A stretch of DNA of 64,000 nucleotides from an uncultured Rikenellaceae bacterium (GTDB lineage Bacteria > Bacteroidota > Bacteroidia > Bacteroidales > Rikenellaceae), in the NCBI GenBank assembly GCA_944326945.1, contig CALVFY010000010.1:1-64000 (forward strand), read 5' to 3'. The position numbers and the translations under genes are program-made. The notes under the pieces are model-generated. The model was not told where the DNA came from and made no database searches. It was given only the letters and a program-made list of their open reading frames with translations. Of this stretch, positions 34,439-41,381 are shown one piece after another (positions within the stretch are counted from its first letter, which is position 1; the number at the start of each line of letters is the position of its first letter).

Positions 34439-35278
34439 TTAACGGATTCCGAATTCGAACTCTTTGGCCCGGACGGCCCGATCGAGAATGGCCCCCGTTT
34501 TCTCGGCGACGATGTTGAATCCCAGTCGGCCGTTCCACTCTTTCAGACTGACCACGCCTTGGGGTGTCATGCAGAACAGTTCGTCGCAACGTTTGAGCAT
34601 CTCTTCCGTGAGGACCGATTCTTCGACCTCCAATGCCGCTTCCTGGCAGAGGCGGATCCCAAGGTGACGCCATAGGCTCTCTGCTGCTCCATTTTCGATC
34701 GATGTGGTAAGGACCCTGTTGTCGAATACCGCAAACAGGGGATTTTCGCCGGCACCCGTCACCACACCCGATCCGTTTTCGGTCAGTGCCAGGTCACATC
34801 CCGTTCGGAGGGCATAGCCCTGAGCGAAGGTGTGTGCAATGCGTGAGAGAGCGGTTTCATGCTCCGGAAATGGATAATCATAGGGAAGAGTACAGGCTCT
34901 GAGGCGGGAGTGCCATAACGTATAGCCCGGATACACGAATGTCTCCGTACAACTGATCATCCGGCTTCCCGGCCTCTCCTCCCGAGGCGCAAACAGGTAG
35001 AGTGTAACCAGATTGCTGACCTCGGGATAGCGATTCTCCCGTAGGGTCAGAGCTATCTCTTGCCGCAGAGTCTCTTCGTCCAAGGCGAGTTCTATTCCGT
35101 AGAGAATTCGGTAACTTTTCTGGATCAACCTGAGGTGGGTGGCGATGTGGAGCGGACGGTGTTCGAATGTATGGATGCGTTGATAGAGATATCCTTGGGA
35201 CAATACCCTGTCGGGATCGAACCTCAATTCGTCCTCTGCACGGAGCACTCCGTCAATACAGATCCGATCGCCCTGCAT
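34439..35278 (-). CDS. Class IV aminotransferase-like protein, catalytic Lys apparently absent
   Basis: The 279-residue protein has the class IV (BCAT/PabC) fold pattern: IDGVLRAED at the start, HIATHLRLIQKSYRILYG near residue 50, and the late GVVTGAGENPLFAVF and CDELFCMTPQGVVSL segments. The PLP-binding Lys expected near residue 145 is replaced (ETALSRIAHTFA), and the Glu of the usual G-x-x-E-x(4)-N motif reads as Thr. It may be an inactive or repurposed relative of aminodeoxychorismate lyase. I use the ATG at 35278; an ATG at 35311 would overlap the rhomboid gene. It is last in holA-rhomboid-aminotransferase. Confidence 0.82.
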   Translation of the reverse strand: MQGDRICIDGVLRAEDELRFDPDRVLSQGYLYQRIHTFEHRPLHIATHLRLIQKSYRILYGIELALDEETLRQEIALTLRENRYPEVSNLVTLYLFAPREERPGSRMISCTETFVYPGYTLWHSRLRACTLPYDYPFPEHETALSRIAHTFAQGYALRTGCDLALTENGSGVVTGAGENPLFAVFDNRVLTTSIENGAAESLWRHLGIRLCQEAALEVEESVLTEEMLKRCDELFCMTPQGVVSLKEWNGRLGFNIVAEKTGAILDRAVRAKEFEFGIR

Positions 35279-35282
35279 GGAG

Positions 35283-35897
35283 TCAGAATTTGAAACCCTG
35301 AAGGAAGACATGAATGAGCGACGGGCTCATCAACAACGGAAAGATAAATCCGTAGATGGCTCCGAAAATATGGGCATAGTGGTTGATCCGATCGCCTTCG
35401 CGACGAGCCGACCATCGTTCGTAAAACAGATAGAGTACTCCGAAGAGGATACCCGGTATGGGAATGACCCCGAAGAAGTAGATCAAGCCCAGCGGTTGGA
35501 AGAAAATTGAAGCGAATACCACAGCCGACACGGCTCCCGAGGCTCCGATCGACGAGTAATAGGGGTTGTCTCTCCATTTGAACAGATCGTAGAGCGAGGC
35601 CACGACCATCCCTCCGAAGTAGAGCAGAAAATAGGTGAGATAGGGGTTGAGAATCACTCCGGCGAACTCCTGTATTTTGAAAATCTGCTCCATGAGTGCC
35701 CCGAACGACCACAGTACAAACATATTGACGATCAGATGCGTGTAGTCTGCGTGGACAAACCCGTGGGTGATCAGCCTCCACCATTCCCGACGATGCCACA
35801 CGGCATAGGGATCCATCGAGAGTTTCGAAGCCAGTTCCCGGTTGTTGAAACACACGATCGAGATGACGGCCGTAAGAAATATGAGTATGTAGGTCAT
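35283..35897 (-). CDS. Rhomboid-family intramembrane serine protease (second copy)
   Basis: The 204-residue protein has about six TM segments. The catalytic Ser is in GASGAVSAVVFAS (about residue 120) and the His in NHYAHIFGAIYGF. HADYTHLIVNMFVLWSFG corresponds to the conserved H...N loop. It is an inner-membrane protease of unknown substrate, clearly different from the copy at 8914. It starts 30 bp after holA and ends 4 bp before the aminotransferase-like gene. Confidence 0.92.
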   Translation of the reverse strand: MTYILIFLTAVISIVCFNNRELASKLSMDPYAVWHRREWWRLITHGFVHADYTHLIVNMFVLWSFGALMEQIFKIQEFAGVILNPYLTYFLLYFGGMVVASLYDLFKWRDNPYYSSIGASGAVSAVVFASIFFQPLGLIYFFGVIPIPGILFGVLYLFYERWSARREGDRINHYAHIFGAIYGFIFPLLMSPSLIHVFLQGFKF

Positions 35898-35927: not shown

Positions 35928-37001
35928 TTATAGATAGAATATTTTCAGCAACAGTTCTCTGAGCAGTTCGCCCTCGTCGGCCGATCCGCTGTTCATGCCC
36001 TTGCTTTTAAGATCGTACTGGCGAAGGAGTCCCAGAATAGTGAACACTTTTTTGTTGGGATACAGAGCGGCAGCCTGTTTGTATTCGTTCAGAAAGAACG
36101 GATTGGGCAGTTTGAGCATTCTGCTCAACTCCATATCCGAAGGCATTTGCATACCCCGGTGCCGCACCAGCCAACGTTGGTAGTTGAGGATGAAGATCCG
36201 CTGGAAATGGCTGAACAGGGTGCTGATCGTGACAATCAGCGGATTCTCCTTGGGGTTGTGGGCGAAATGGTCGGCAATCATCAGGGCTTTCTCCATGTTG
36301 CGTTCCGAGAGGGCTCTGGTCAATTCGAAGTTGTTGAAATCCTTGCTGATCCCGATATTCTGTTCGATATGGTCGGCCGTGATGGTCTTTGTGTCCTCGG
36401 GCAAAAAGGTCAGCAACTTGGTCAGTTCGTTGGAGATTTTGGCAATATCCACACCAAGATGTTCTGTGAGCATCGTGAGTGCTTTGGGGTCGATCGAACA
36501 ACCCTTCGAGCGGATAAAATCGGCGAGCCAGGGACCTATTTCATAGTCGCGCGGGCGGGTCGATTCGAATACTTCGCCTTGTTGGGCGATCTGTTTGTAG
36601 AGTTGGGTCCGTTTGTCGAGACTCTTCTCCTTGTGGCAGAGTACCAGAATCGTCGAGGCGGCAGGTGCCTGCGTATAGAGCGAGAGTTGCTCGATTTTAC
36701 GTAATTGCTGGGCTTCTCTCACGATCACCACCTGATAGCTGCCCATCATGGGCATCTGACGGCAGAAGTTGATGATGGCTCCGCATTCGCTGTCCTTTCC
36801 GTAGACCACAATCTGATTGAATGCCCGTTCGGCTTCCGAGAGGATCCCCTCGGCCAGTTGATCGCACAGTCGGTCGATGAAATAACCCTCTTCGCCCATG
36901 AGCAGATAGACGGGGGCGAATTTACGGGCTGCAATATCGCGTTGTAATCGACTGAATTCAGCGACGCTCTCTTTGAATGTGGTTTTACCGCTCTTTGCCA
37001 T
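35928..37001 (-). CDS. holA: HolA, DNA polymerase III delta subunit
   Basis: A 357-residue protein with the HolA pattern: FAPVYLLMGEEGYFIDRLCDQL at the N-terminus (positions 27-48), a central AAA-like domain, and the conserved ELTKLLTFLPEDTKTITADHIEQ and NPLIVTISTLFSHFQRIF segments. It is the wrench that opens the sliding clamp in the clamp loader. It is first in an operon with rhomboid and aminotransferase-like genes. Confidence 0.93.
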   Translation of the reverse strand: MAKSGKTTFKESVAEFSRLQRDIAARKFAPVYLLMGEEGYFIDRLCDQLAEGILSEAERAFNQIVVYGKDSECGAIINFCRQMPMMGSYQVVIVREAQQLRKIEQLSLYTQAPAASTILVLCHKEKSLDKRTQLYKQIAQQGEVFESTRPRDYEIGPWLADFIRSKGCSIDPKALTMLTEHLGVDIAKISNELTKLLTFLPEDTKTITADHIEQNIGISKDFNNFELTRALSERNMEKALMIADHFAHNPKENPLIVTISTLFSHFQRIFILNYQRWLVRHRGMQMPSDMELSRMLKLPNPFFLNEYKQAAALYPNKKVFTILGLLRQYDLKSKGMNSGSADEGELLRELLLKIFYL

Positions 37002-37171: not shown

Positions 37172-39010
37172 ATGAATAGTTTCCGAAAAATCGTTTGCTC
37201 ATTGTTGTCGTGTTTGACGTTGACTTTGTCTCTGTCTCTCCAGGCGGAGAACCGTACGCCGGTTTTCAATTATGATCGTTCCGGCGGTCATCCTCGTATT
37301 TTGTTGAATGAACAAGAGTTTCGTCAGTTGCGGAAAACGGTGGCGAAACACTCTCCGCTTCAGATCGTGCACAATCAGATACTGACGATCAGCGATGAAC
37401 TTCTCGATAAACCCGTTCTTGTGCGTAAAATGATCGGACGTCGTATGTTGTCGGTTTCCCGCGATGCCCTGCAACGGATATTTTATCTTTCGTATGCCTA
37501 TCGTATGACGGGTAGGAAGGCCTATTTGAATCGGGCCGGTGAGGAGTTGGCTGCTGTGAGCCGTTTTACGGATTGGAATCCTACTCATTTTTTGGATTGT
37601 GCCGAGATGACCATGGCTGTGGCAATCGGTTACGACTGGTTGTACAAGGATCTGCCGGCTACGGTACGCGACCAGGCTCGTCGGGCGATTGTCGAGAAAG
37701 GGCTTTTGGCCTCTTTTGACCGGTCGTATGAAAAGATGTTCACCACTCGAAAGAATAACTGGAATCAGGTTTGTCATGCGGGGATGGTCTATGGAGCGAT
37801 GGCCGTGATGGAAACGGATCGGGACCTGGCAGAGAGGACCATCGAGCGTGCCGTAGCCAACAATCCGATTGTGATGGAGATGTATGCTCCCGACGGGGTT
37901 TATCCCGAGGGATTCAGCTACTGGGGATATGGCACCACATTCGAGGTGATGATGCTGGCTGCACTTGAACACACTTTCGGATCGGATGGAGGACTTTCTC
38001 TTTATAAAGGTTTCGACCGTACGGCGGGATATATGCTCTATATGGTGGGAACAAGTGGCGCTCCGTTCAACTATTCCGATTCGGGTACGGGGGTAGCTCC
38101 TCATCCGGCTTTGTATTGGTTCGCTCAGCGTTATGGAAATTTATCTTGGGTATGGAATGACTGTAAATTGATCGAGACCAAATTGGGTAAGGATAGGCTG
38201 TTGCCGGCAATCGTTATTTTTGCTCGGGATCTGGATTTTGATAAAATCGTGCCTCCGACGGAAAAAGTATGGGCTGGAAATGGACCTAATCCTGTGGTGT
38301 TGGTGCGTACCGGCTGGAAAGGCGATCCGCAAGACAAATATCTGGCCATGAAAGGAGGGTCCGCTCAATTGAGTCATACGCATTTGGATGCCGGATCGTT
38401 CGTGTATGATGCAGCTGGATTGCGTTGGGCAATGGATTTGGGTACGGTGAATTATAATTCGTTGGAGAGCAGAGGGGTAAAGTTGTGGGGACGGACTCAG
38501 GATTCCGAACGTTGGACGGTGTTCCGTTATAATAATTACGCACATAATACGCTGACCGTAAACGGAAAACTACATAATGTGAAAGGTTTTGTTCCCGTAA
38601 CGGAGGTCTATCGCGAGGGACGCGAATTGGGAGGTGAAATGGATCTGACGGCGTTGTTCCCTGACTTGAAACGTGCGGTTCGTAAGGCGGTGCTTGTCGA
38701 CGGGAAGCGATTGGTCATTGAAGATCGGGTCGAGGGGGGAGAAAATCCGGCTACATTGCGTTTCAGTATGGTGACTCCTGCCCGGGTGGAGATGGTGGAT
38801 GGAAGTACTGTGAGGTTGACGCAGAGAGGTAAAACGATGCTGATGCATTTTAAGGGGAGCCAGCCGTGTACGATCAAAACTTGGTCGACCAAACCCGAAC
38901 GTTCGTATGAACCCTCGAACGAGGGAACGATAATTGTGGGATTCGAGGCGACCGTCCCGGCAGGAGGGAAGGAAAGTTTCGAGGTGACTCTTGAAGAACC
39001 TGTTGGATAG
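37172..39010 (+). CDS. Heparinase II/III-family polysaccharide lyase-like protein
   Basis: The 612-residue protein has a signal peptide (about 1-25, ending LSLQAENR). An alpha/alpha-toroid N-terminal half follows (residues 60-330, with NWNQVCHAGMVYGAMAVM and GVYPEGFSYWGYGTTF). The C-terminal beta-sandwich carries LSHTHLDAGSFVYDAAG and NNYAHNTLTVNGKLH, the conserved His-containing motifs of heparinase II/III and alginate lyases (PL12/15/17/21-like). It would cut a uronate-containing polysaccharide in the periplasm. It stands alone, with no SusCD pair, sulfatase or kinase, so the substrate is unknown. Confidence 0.9.
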   Translation: MNSFRKIVCSLLSCLTLTLSLSLQAENRTPVFNYDRSGGHPRILLNEQEFRQLRKTVAKHSPLQIVHNQILTISDELLDKPVLVRKMIGRRMLSVSRDALQRIFYLSYAYRMTGRKAYLNRAGEELAAVSRFTDWNPTHFLDCAEMTMAVAIGYDWLYKDLPATVRDQARRAIVEKGLLASFDRSYEKMFTTRKNNWNQVCHAGMVYGAMAVMETDRDLAERTIERAVANNPIVMEMYAPDGVYPEGFSYWGYGTTFEVMMLAALEHTFGSDGGLSLYKGFDRTAGYMLYMVGTSGAPFNYSDSGTGVAPHPALYWFAQRYGNLSWVWNDCKLIETKLGKDRLLPAIVIFARDLDFDKIVPPTEKVWAGNGPNPVVLVRTGWKGDPQDKYLAMKGGSAQLSHTHLDAGSFVYDAAGLRWAMDLGTVNYNSLESRGVKLWGRTQDSERWTVFRYNNYAHNTLTVNGKLHNVKGFVPVTEVYREGRELGGEMDLTALFPDLKRAVRKAVLVDGKRLVIEDRVEGGENPATLRFSMVTPARVEMVDGSTVRLTQRGKTMLMHFKGSQPCTIKTWSTKPERSYEPSNEGTIIVGFEATVPAGGKESFEVTLEEPVG

Positions 39011-39023
39011 TCTGCCTGGAAGG

Positions 39024-39070
39024 TAAAAAAACAGACGAAAATCCCCTTGAGATTTTCGTCTGTTTTTTTT
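39024..39070. terminator. Bidirectional terminator between the heparinase gene and the V-ATPase operon
   Basis: ACAGACGAAAATC and its complement form a 13-bp stem with a 7-nt loop, preceded by seven A and followed by eight T. Confidence 0.92.
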
Positions 39071-39083
39071 GTGCCGGATTGGT

Positions 39084-39545
<462 letters not shown>

Positions 39546-39557
39546 TTAGTTAAGTTT

Positions 39558-41381
39558 CTATGCTTGATTTTTTGTGTCGTGTTTGAACGGAGTGAAGGGT
39601 CGTTGACTTTCTTCGAATCCGGCGTTTTTGTAGAATTCCACAAAGGTCAGACGCATCGGGTGAACAAACGAGCCGAGCGACGACATGAACAGGTTGATCC
39701 CGTGGCCGATCAACAGGATGATAATCGTTACGATCACTCCCACGACCGGAATATCCGGACTCAATCCGAGAGCCAGATCGTTGAATACCAGGGCCAGTAC
39801 ACTGCCCGACAGTCCGATGGCAAACAGACGGATATAACTCAATACGTCACTCATCAGACCCGTCACATCGTTGTAGGTGTTCCACAGACCGGCTCCGAAG
39901 TTGGCCAGCGGATTTTTCCCCGGCGAGTTGAGGAACAGCATCATGAAGAGCCCTATTCCAAGGCAGATGAGATAGCCGATGGAACTCATCGAGAAGCCCG
40001 TCAATCCCAGATCCGGCAGGAACATGGCGGCGATGGTGGAGACGATGACGATCATCCAGCCGATTGTGGAGAGGGCATAGCGGAATCCGAACAGCCGTGT
40101 GGTGACGGCCGTTTTGAGAGCCATGCCGAAGAGTATTTGTATCAGACCCAGTGCGATCGACAGATTAAAGAGTTTCTCCGACGAGAGGAAATAATCTCGG
40201 AATTGGGAGAACAATGGCAATCCTGCCAATTGAACGCCGAAGAATGATCCTGTCAGCAGTCCGAACAATACGGTAGCGGCTCCGCACCAGATAGTAAGGC
40301 CCGCTGTTTGACGTAATTTCATGCCGCCCTTCCATCGCATCAGCAATCCGGCCAGCACGAAGAGTAGTCCGTAGCCGCCGTCGCCCAGACAGAATCCGAA
40401 AAAGATCATGTAGAATGGCCCGAAATAGGGAGTCAAATCCATCGTGCCGTATTTGGGCAGCGAATAGAATCTTCCGATCAGTTCAAACAGCCGTGCGAAC
40501 CGGTTGTTTTTCAATAGAATGGGAGTGTCGTCGTCCGGAGTGGGGTCGGATTTCAGGTAGATGAGATCCGAAAACTCCTCCAGCATGGCATCCACCTTGT
40601 CGGCTGTCTCACAGGTCGCCCAACCCTCCAGTAAGACTAATGATCCATCGGCTGCGGACTTCCCCGAGTCATGCACCTGTCGGAATTGGAGCCGTTCCCG
40701 CAGACTTTTTTCGTGTGCTGCGATAGCCTCCTGCGAGGCGGCACAACGAGCCAGCTGCCGATTCCATTTTTCCAGTTCCGCCTCGAGAGAGGCGATTTCT
40801 CTCAATTTGTCGTTGCGAGTGGCGTCGGGTTTGCGCAACTCCTGGGCATTGATCGCAACATCCGTATCCGGGGAGACGATGGCTACGAAATAGGTGAAAC
40901 CTTCCTCCGAGGCGATTCGTTCGATGATATATTGTTCCCTCCAAGTGGCGACATGATTGTCGAAATCCTTGTCGTAGGTCGAGAAGAAACGGAGTTCTAC
41001 TCCCGACTCTTCCAGTCGGGCGATCTTTTCAGGAGAAAATTCGCCCCATACAGCCAACTCGTCGGCCTCCTTGTGCAGCCGAGCGATACGTGCCGTGAGG
41101 GATTCGATCTCACGAACGGCTTCCTGATAATGGACGAAAGCCTCTTTCCCCGAGGCGAAAGGTTCGCCCGGAGTGAAATCTTTGCGCGCAGTCAGATCCT
41201 TGAAACGGTTGGCTGCCTGACGATGTTGTTCGATTTGTGCGAGCAGGCGGCGGTCATCCTCCGAGGGTTCCCATCCGGTGGTGGTGATATCCACCAGCCC
41301 CAACTCTTGCAATTGCTCCAGGAAATTTTCGTAGCAACCGTAATGAAGCACGAAATCGTATTTGATCATGGGTACGATCAT
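39558..41381 (-). CDS. V-type ATP synthase subunit I (stator)
   Basis: A 607-residue protein with a long soluble N-terminal arm rich in coiled coil (about 1-310) and a C-terminal membrane domain of about seven segments (from SLPKYGTMDLTPYFGPFYMIFFG onward, about residue 320). The last loop holds the conserved Arg in FVHPMRLTFVEFYKNAGFE, which faces the rotor carboxylate. It forms the ion half-channels and anchors the peripheral stalks. The ATG overlaps the stop of subunit D (ATGA); Met5 is another possible start. Confidence 0.95.
   Translation of the reverse strand: MIVPMIKYDFVLHYGCYENFLEQLQELGLVDITTTGWEPSEDDRRLLAQIEQHRQAANRFKDLTARKDFTPGEPFASGKEAFVHYQEAVREIESLTARIARLHKEADELAVWGEFSPEKIARLEESGVELRFFSTYDKDFDNHVATWREQYIIERIASEEGFTYFVAIVSPDTDVAINAQELRKPDATRNDKLREIASLEAELEKWNRQLARCAASQEAIAAHEKSLRERLQFRQVHDSGKSAADGSLVLLEGWATCETADKVDAMLEEFSDLIYLKSDPTPDDDTPILLKNNRFARLFELIGRFYSLPKYGTMDLTPYFGPFYMIFFGFCLGDGGYGLLFVLAGLLMRWKGGMKLRQTAGLTIWCGAATVLFGLLTGSFFGVQLAGLPLFSQFRDYFLSSEKLFNLSIALGLIQILFGMALKTAVTTRLFGFRYALSTIGWMIVIVSTIAAMFLPDLGLTGFSMSSIGYLICLGIGLFMMLFLNSPGKNPLANFGAGLWNTYNDVTGLMSDVLSYIRLFAIGLSGSVLALVFNDLALGLSPDIPVVGVIVTIIILLIGHGINLFMSSLGSFVHPMRLTFVEFYKNAGFEESQRPFTPFKHDTKNQA

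Follow-up and report, generated by a model that had tools for sequence, protein, structure and literature searches.

The window, a stretch of 64,000 nucleotides from an uncultured, gut-type Rikenellaceae bacterium of the Bacteroidales that was analysed as a whole, encodes a protein with the predicted fold of class IV aminotransferases from which the residues that hold PLP have been lost. Most probably, this protein is a PLP-free pseudo-aminotransferase that has a binding role in a holA/rhomboid setting and belongs to a group of proteins in which the PLP site was lost repeatedly. The gene is under purifying selection and its order relative to holA and the rhomboid gene is conserved. The family-wide loss of the site, its independent recurrence and the holA-rhomboid setting were seen beyond the earlier note on this DNA, which described a class IV aminotransferase relative without the PLP lysine. 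The features discussed below are listed in Table 1.

Table 1. Position of the class IV gene, its former cofactor residues and the two preceding genes in the window
Feature	Position	Strand	Basis or remark
Lys-less class IV aminotransferase-fold protein, 279 aa	34439..35278	(-)	start 35278, stop 34439
His140-Glu141-Thr142 codons, Schiff-base Lys site	34850..34858	(-)	Thr142 by DAAT alignment, Glu141 by orthologue alignment
Gly175 codon, place of the pyridine-nitrogen Glu	34754..34756	(-)	alignment
Leu51 codon, place of the phosphate-binding Arg	35126..35128	(-)	alignment
Ser201-Leu202-Trp203 codons, place of the Gly-Ile-Thr phosphate loop	34667..34675	(-)	alignment
Rhomboid intramembrane protease gene, directly upstream	35283..35897	(-)	Pfam PF01694, 82.5 bits
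holA, DNA polymerase III delta subunit, with which the conserved cluster begins	35928..37001	(-)	Pfam PF06144, 54.5 bits

The frame assigned to the gene in the earlier note is present at the positions given there, on the minus strand. Its product scores 60.7 bits with the Pfam model Aminotran_4 (cut-off 28.5), and the NCBIfam transaminase models score far below their cut-offs. As had been noted, there is no Lys from residue 55 to residue 228, the flanking lysines being residues 54 and 229, and the Schiff-base region reads exactly as quoted before, ETALSRIAHTFA (residues 141-152), without a Lys. The structure prediction that had been suggested was carried out with AlphaFold2 using 15 orthologues and gave a confident class IV fold (pLDDT 89.7, pTM 0.87). 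The closest solved structures to this model are BCATs and DAATs, with Z scores of 26-27, rmsd values of 2.4-3.1 and 257-273 aligned residues. Pfam score and structural similarity (Z about 27) together show that the two-domain class IV fold is present.

The pocket of the protein was judged from alignments rather than from the coordinates of the model. The PLP contacts conserved in fold type IV are Lys143, Glu176, Arg52, Ile202, Thr203 and Thr239 in the numbering of the Haliscomenobacter hydrossis enzyme (PMC8401098). At these places the window protein has Thr142, Gly175, Leu51, Leu202, Trp203 and Thr238-Pro239, respectively. The profile alignment with DAAT opens with DAAT Ser146 opposite Ala143 and Lys145 lies one residue before the aligned stretch; hence Lys145 corresponds to Thr142. 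Further along the same alignment, DAAT Glu177 is placed opposite Gly175, Gly203-Ile204-Thr205-Arg206 opposite Ser201-Leu202-Trp203-Arg204, and Ser240-Thr241 opposite Thr238-Pro239. Leu51 falls into the column that is occupied by the phosphate Arg in Lys-bearing relatives. A profile-profile alignment with Lys-bearing orthologues is shifted by one residue and sets their Lys opposite Glu141, so that the Schiff-base site is without Lys by either alignment. The window protein shares the whole fold with DAAT and BCAT but lacks their Schiff-base Lys, their pyridine Glu and the phosphate cup formed by Arg, Ile-Thr and Thr. Two statements of the earlier note need to be amended accordingly. The cofactor Glu, given there as Thr, is indeed lost, but the aligned residue is Gly175, which Thr174 adjoins; and the remark that the rest of the fold pattern is kept applies to the fold but not to the cofactor site, where the phosphate Arg and the counterparts of Thr205 and Thr241 are lost as well.

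To follow these positions through the family, close members were aligned first, and column counts were taken from 52 Rikenellaceae members. Column 142 contains Lys in none of the 52 and Thr in 48, and column 141 is mostly Pro, with Lys in three. Another Lys in the pocket, which according to the earlier note would have spoken against its reading, was sought over all columns of the 52 members and was not found; apart from columns 141 and 142, the number of members with Lys does not exceed 15 in any column. The absence of Lys at the site exceeds chance. The phosphate Arg at column 51 is kept in 4/52 members and the cofactor Glu at column 175 in 2/52. The Lys one residue before Thr142 (L033, AYKTAAN; L055, HFKTALS; L059, AFKTSAG) was considered as a retained catalytic Lys and rejected. 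Because the Arg column of these three proteins is occupied by Leu and both the Glu and G[IV]T are absent, a working PLP site is unlikely in them.

The gene lies on the same strand as holA and the rhomboid gene and follows both, with the rhomboid stop 4 bases ahead of its start. Among 55 Rikenellaceae loci examined, 51 have holA upstream, with or without an intervening rhomboid gene; the remaining four have the rhomboid gene directly upstream and no holA within the stretch examined. Homologues at the same kind of locus include those of Candidatus Alistipes merdigallinarum and of Rikenellaceae MAGs. The rhomboid gene is missing in several Rikenellaceae genera (L036, L037, L112, L151-L170), and at such loci the class IV gene mostly adjoins the end of holA or overlaps with it, an arrangement that may point to translational coupling. 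Other families of Bacteroidales have holA first, then rhomboid and last the class IV gene, in some cases with a NUDIX or HAD-type gene before the latter; such an additional gene also occurs at some loci that encode Lys-bearing proteins. Elsewhere in the window, the region 37172-41381 contains V-type ATPase genes on the minus strand (c-subunit-like, 39084-39530; I subunit, 39558-41381), beside a heparinase II/III-like gene on the plus strand (37172-39010).

Related loci outside the Rikenellaceae clade were collected with the neighbouring rhomboid as query, a search with the protein itself having given no locus and the class IV alignment being too divergent for this purpose. This yielded a comparison set of 44 related proteins, nearly all from rhomboid loci; the Lys is present in 19 of them and absent from 25. 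All but one of the Lys-bearing proteins (18/19) also retain the Arg, the Glu and the G of G[IV]MR. Among the 25 Lys-less ones, the phosphate Arg is found in only two, and the Trp of a C-terminal GI[RQ]W motif in 22. Three Lys-bearing, rhomboid-linked proteins (L101, L228 and L099) come from the same kind of locus and can be aligned with the window protein over the full length (hhalign E 3.6e-24); unlike the window protein, they still have Lys, Arg, Glu and G[IV]MR. For a Lys-less homologue from Prolixibacteraceae (L218), the predicted structure (pLDDT 87.8; Z about 27 to class IV enzymes) indicates that it also retains the class IV fold. One rhomboid-linked protein (L191:4590-5486) has Glu instead of the Lys and retains the phosphate Arg, the cofactor Glu, the Asn and GIVR; from its sequence, this looks like a recent loss.

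In a maximum-likelihood tree, the Rikenellaceae proteins form one clade (100/100). The state of the Lys requires at least four changes on this tree, three of which follow from branches with good support, and a topology with all Lys-less proteins in one clade was rejected (p-AU 0.0007); long branches among the Lys-less proteins from outside the Rikenellaceae make some joins and placements uncertain. Counts of changes are blind to direction, but since Lys is the ancestral state in class IV enzymes, we infer that the direction was loss. A contig titled Rikenella microfusus (L228:3501-5429) encodes a Lys-bearing class IV protein that groups with L101 and L203 outside the Rikenellaceae clade, and this MAG may be misnamed.

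The main rival explanation is that the old PLP pocket was repurposed for a PLP-independent reaction carried out via Thr142, Asp/Glu178, Ser201 and Arg204. Thr142 ranks third in conservation among 270 columns, and this may indicate that a new catalytic site has arisen instead of a mere binding function. Furthermore, residues 178 (Asp/Glu, 39/52) and 201 (Ser, 41/52) are newly conserved near the old PLP site, Arg204 is present in 44/52 members, and purifying selection on the gene would also suit an enzyme. However, Arg204 is conserved in Lys-bearing relatives too and is perhaps structural. Residue 142 lies just N-terminal of helix 143-158 in the AlphaFold2 model; Thr, Ser and Asn are ordinary helix caps, and Thr142 could simply have this function. 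Moreover, the independently stripped lineages carry Asp, Glu, Leu, Phe, Met or Asn at the Lys column, and one common new chemistry is therefore unlikely. In view of these points, we regard a repurposed enzyme as a serious but unlikely alternative.

It is improbable that the protein binds PLP or PMP non-covalently, as a Lys-less PLP enzyme or a carrier. The fold is intact, and a class IV protein without the Lys appears to have been crystallised already, namely an aminotransferase-like protein of Variovorax paradoxus (7z79; N174K variant, 9j32). The name of the variant implies Asn at residue 174 of 7z79, which is presumably where the catalytic Lys would be. It resembles the window protein in combining a class IV fold (Z 26.9 to the window model) with an apparently replaced catalytic Lys, but belongs to another lineage and shares 15% identity with it. 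Against non-covalent binding stands the loss of the phosphate Arg, the phosphate Thr residues and the pyridine Glu. In addition, the phosphate-loop Thr (column 203) is replaced by Glu in 38/52 Rikenellaceae members, and a Glu at this place would oppose a phosphate.

A further alternative, that the gene is losing its function and is a relaxed passenger of the holA cluster heading to loss, was assessed from substitution rates and distribution. The dN/dS ratio was 0.15 for the window gene compared with a congener and 0.11 for the pair L007/L008; the corresponding values were 0.07 and 0.11 for rhomboid and 0.05 and 0.05 for holA. The gene is clearly under purifying selection, although its dN/dS is mostly above that of its two neighbours. 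This faster evolution (0.15 versus 0.05-0.07), as well as genomes and genera that have kept holA and rhomboid and are without the class IV gene, would fit a passenger. On the other hand, dN/dS is well under 1, most of the 200 Rikenellaceae genomes have kept an open frame and new positions have become conserved, so that we consider this explanation very unlikely. Profile matches were obtained in 168/200 Rikenellaceae genomes and in 99 of the 109 good-quality ones, although some weak matches among the 168 may be other class IV genes. A decayed copy or pseudogene was likewise judged unlikely, because the gene is widespread in the family, its dN/dS is low and column 142 is consistently without Lys.

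The genome around the window (2.55 Mb, 99.9% complete) contains two class IV genes. The second is located on contig 18 and encodes a BCAT-like protein of 342 aa with GHIKAGGNYG in the region where the Lys is expected. LCB1, a subunit of serine palmitoyltransferase, has PLP fold type I, unlike the window protein, and has a known catalytic partner. In LCB1, a relative of PLP enzymes has remained functional after losing the cofactor Lys (PMC3794620). Although this precedent and the presence of exactly one other class IV gene could suggest that the window protein is a Lys-less subunit pairing with the BCAT-like enzyme in LCB1-LCB2 style, the two genes are unlinked, their sequences are very different and there is no sign of pairing, which makes this idea the least credible of those considered.

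The protein was also compared with PabC, 4-amino-4-deoxychorismate lyase, whose fold is similar (3lul, Z 26.0; 6bb9, Z 25.3, both against the window model). The catalytic Lys of PabC is missing from the window protein. A search of the genome with PF00425 at E values up to 10 revealed no chorismate-binding enzyme as PabB partner, whereas all 14 control genomes were positive. Seven other Rikenellaceae have a short class IV gene (frame of about 200 aa) beside a chorismate-binding gene, and three of these (G018, G019 and G036) possess this PabC-like gene together with a member of the present family. On these grounds, identity with PabC was rejected. The genome has two genes with a pterin-binding domain (PF00809), one of them of dihydropteroate synthase size; with such a gene and without PF00425, a need for external p-aminobenzoate or folate is predicted for this organism.

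We therefore return to a PLP-free binding protein as the preferred explanation. According to this model, the ancestor would have been a class IV PLP enzyme of Bacteroidales whose gene followed holA and rhomboid, and it would have had or gained a PLP-independent role. Rikenellaceae and several further lineages would then have lost the PLP site but retained the fold and the place of the gene. A role without vitamin B6 is probable for this well-conserved protein because the Lys was lost several separate times from the same gene beside holA. Its most likely action would be binding, whereby the intact two-domain fold might hold a partner protein or a ligand, and the gene would be co-expressed with holA and/or the rhomboid gene. 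Any such partner or ligand is putative; that genes share a cluster is a weak sign that their products interact. The earlier proposal of a non-PLP enzyme or a regulatory protein points in the same direction, and it agrees with the lack of an alternative pocket Lys and the loss of the other PLP-holding residues; the sequence would suit a regulatory protein or a scaffold as well as an enzyme. More speculatively, there might have been several independent conversions of a PLP enzyme into a PLP-free protein working with HolA and/or rhomboid, with a non-catalytic role that was ancestral and a Lys that was dispensable from the start; this more specific version is possible, but we would not expect it.

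A search for Lys-less class IV proteins and for this gene found no paper in the literature collection consulted, and we know of no earlier description of repeated Lys loss at one conserved locus. Such proteins exceed the Pfam threshold for class IV aminotransferases, so that they will probably be annotated as enzymes and wrongly assigned to pathways of amino acid or folate metabolism in gut bacteria. Lys-bearing, single-substituted and fully stripped forms are all extant and constitute a natural series for the change from an enzyme to a pseudoenzyme. Finally, the fact that a single locus has repeatedly lost its catalytic lysine hints at an ancestral role of these proteins in the holA-rhomboid cluster.
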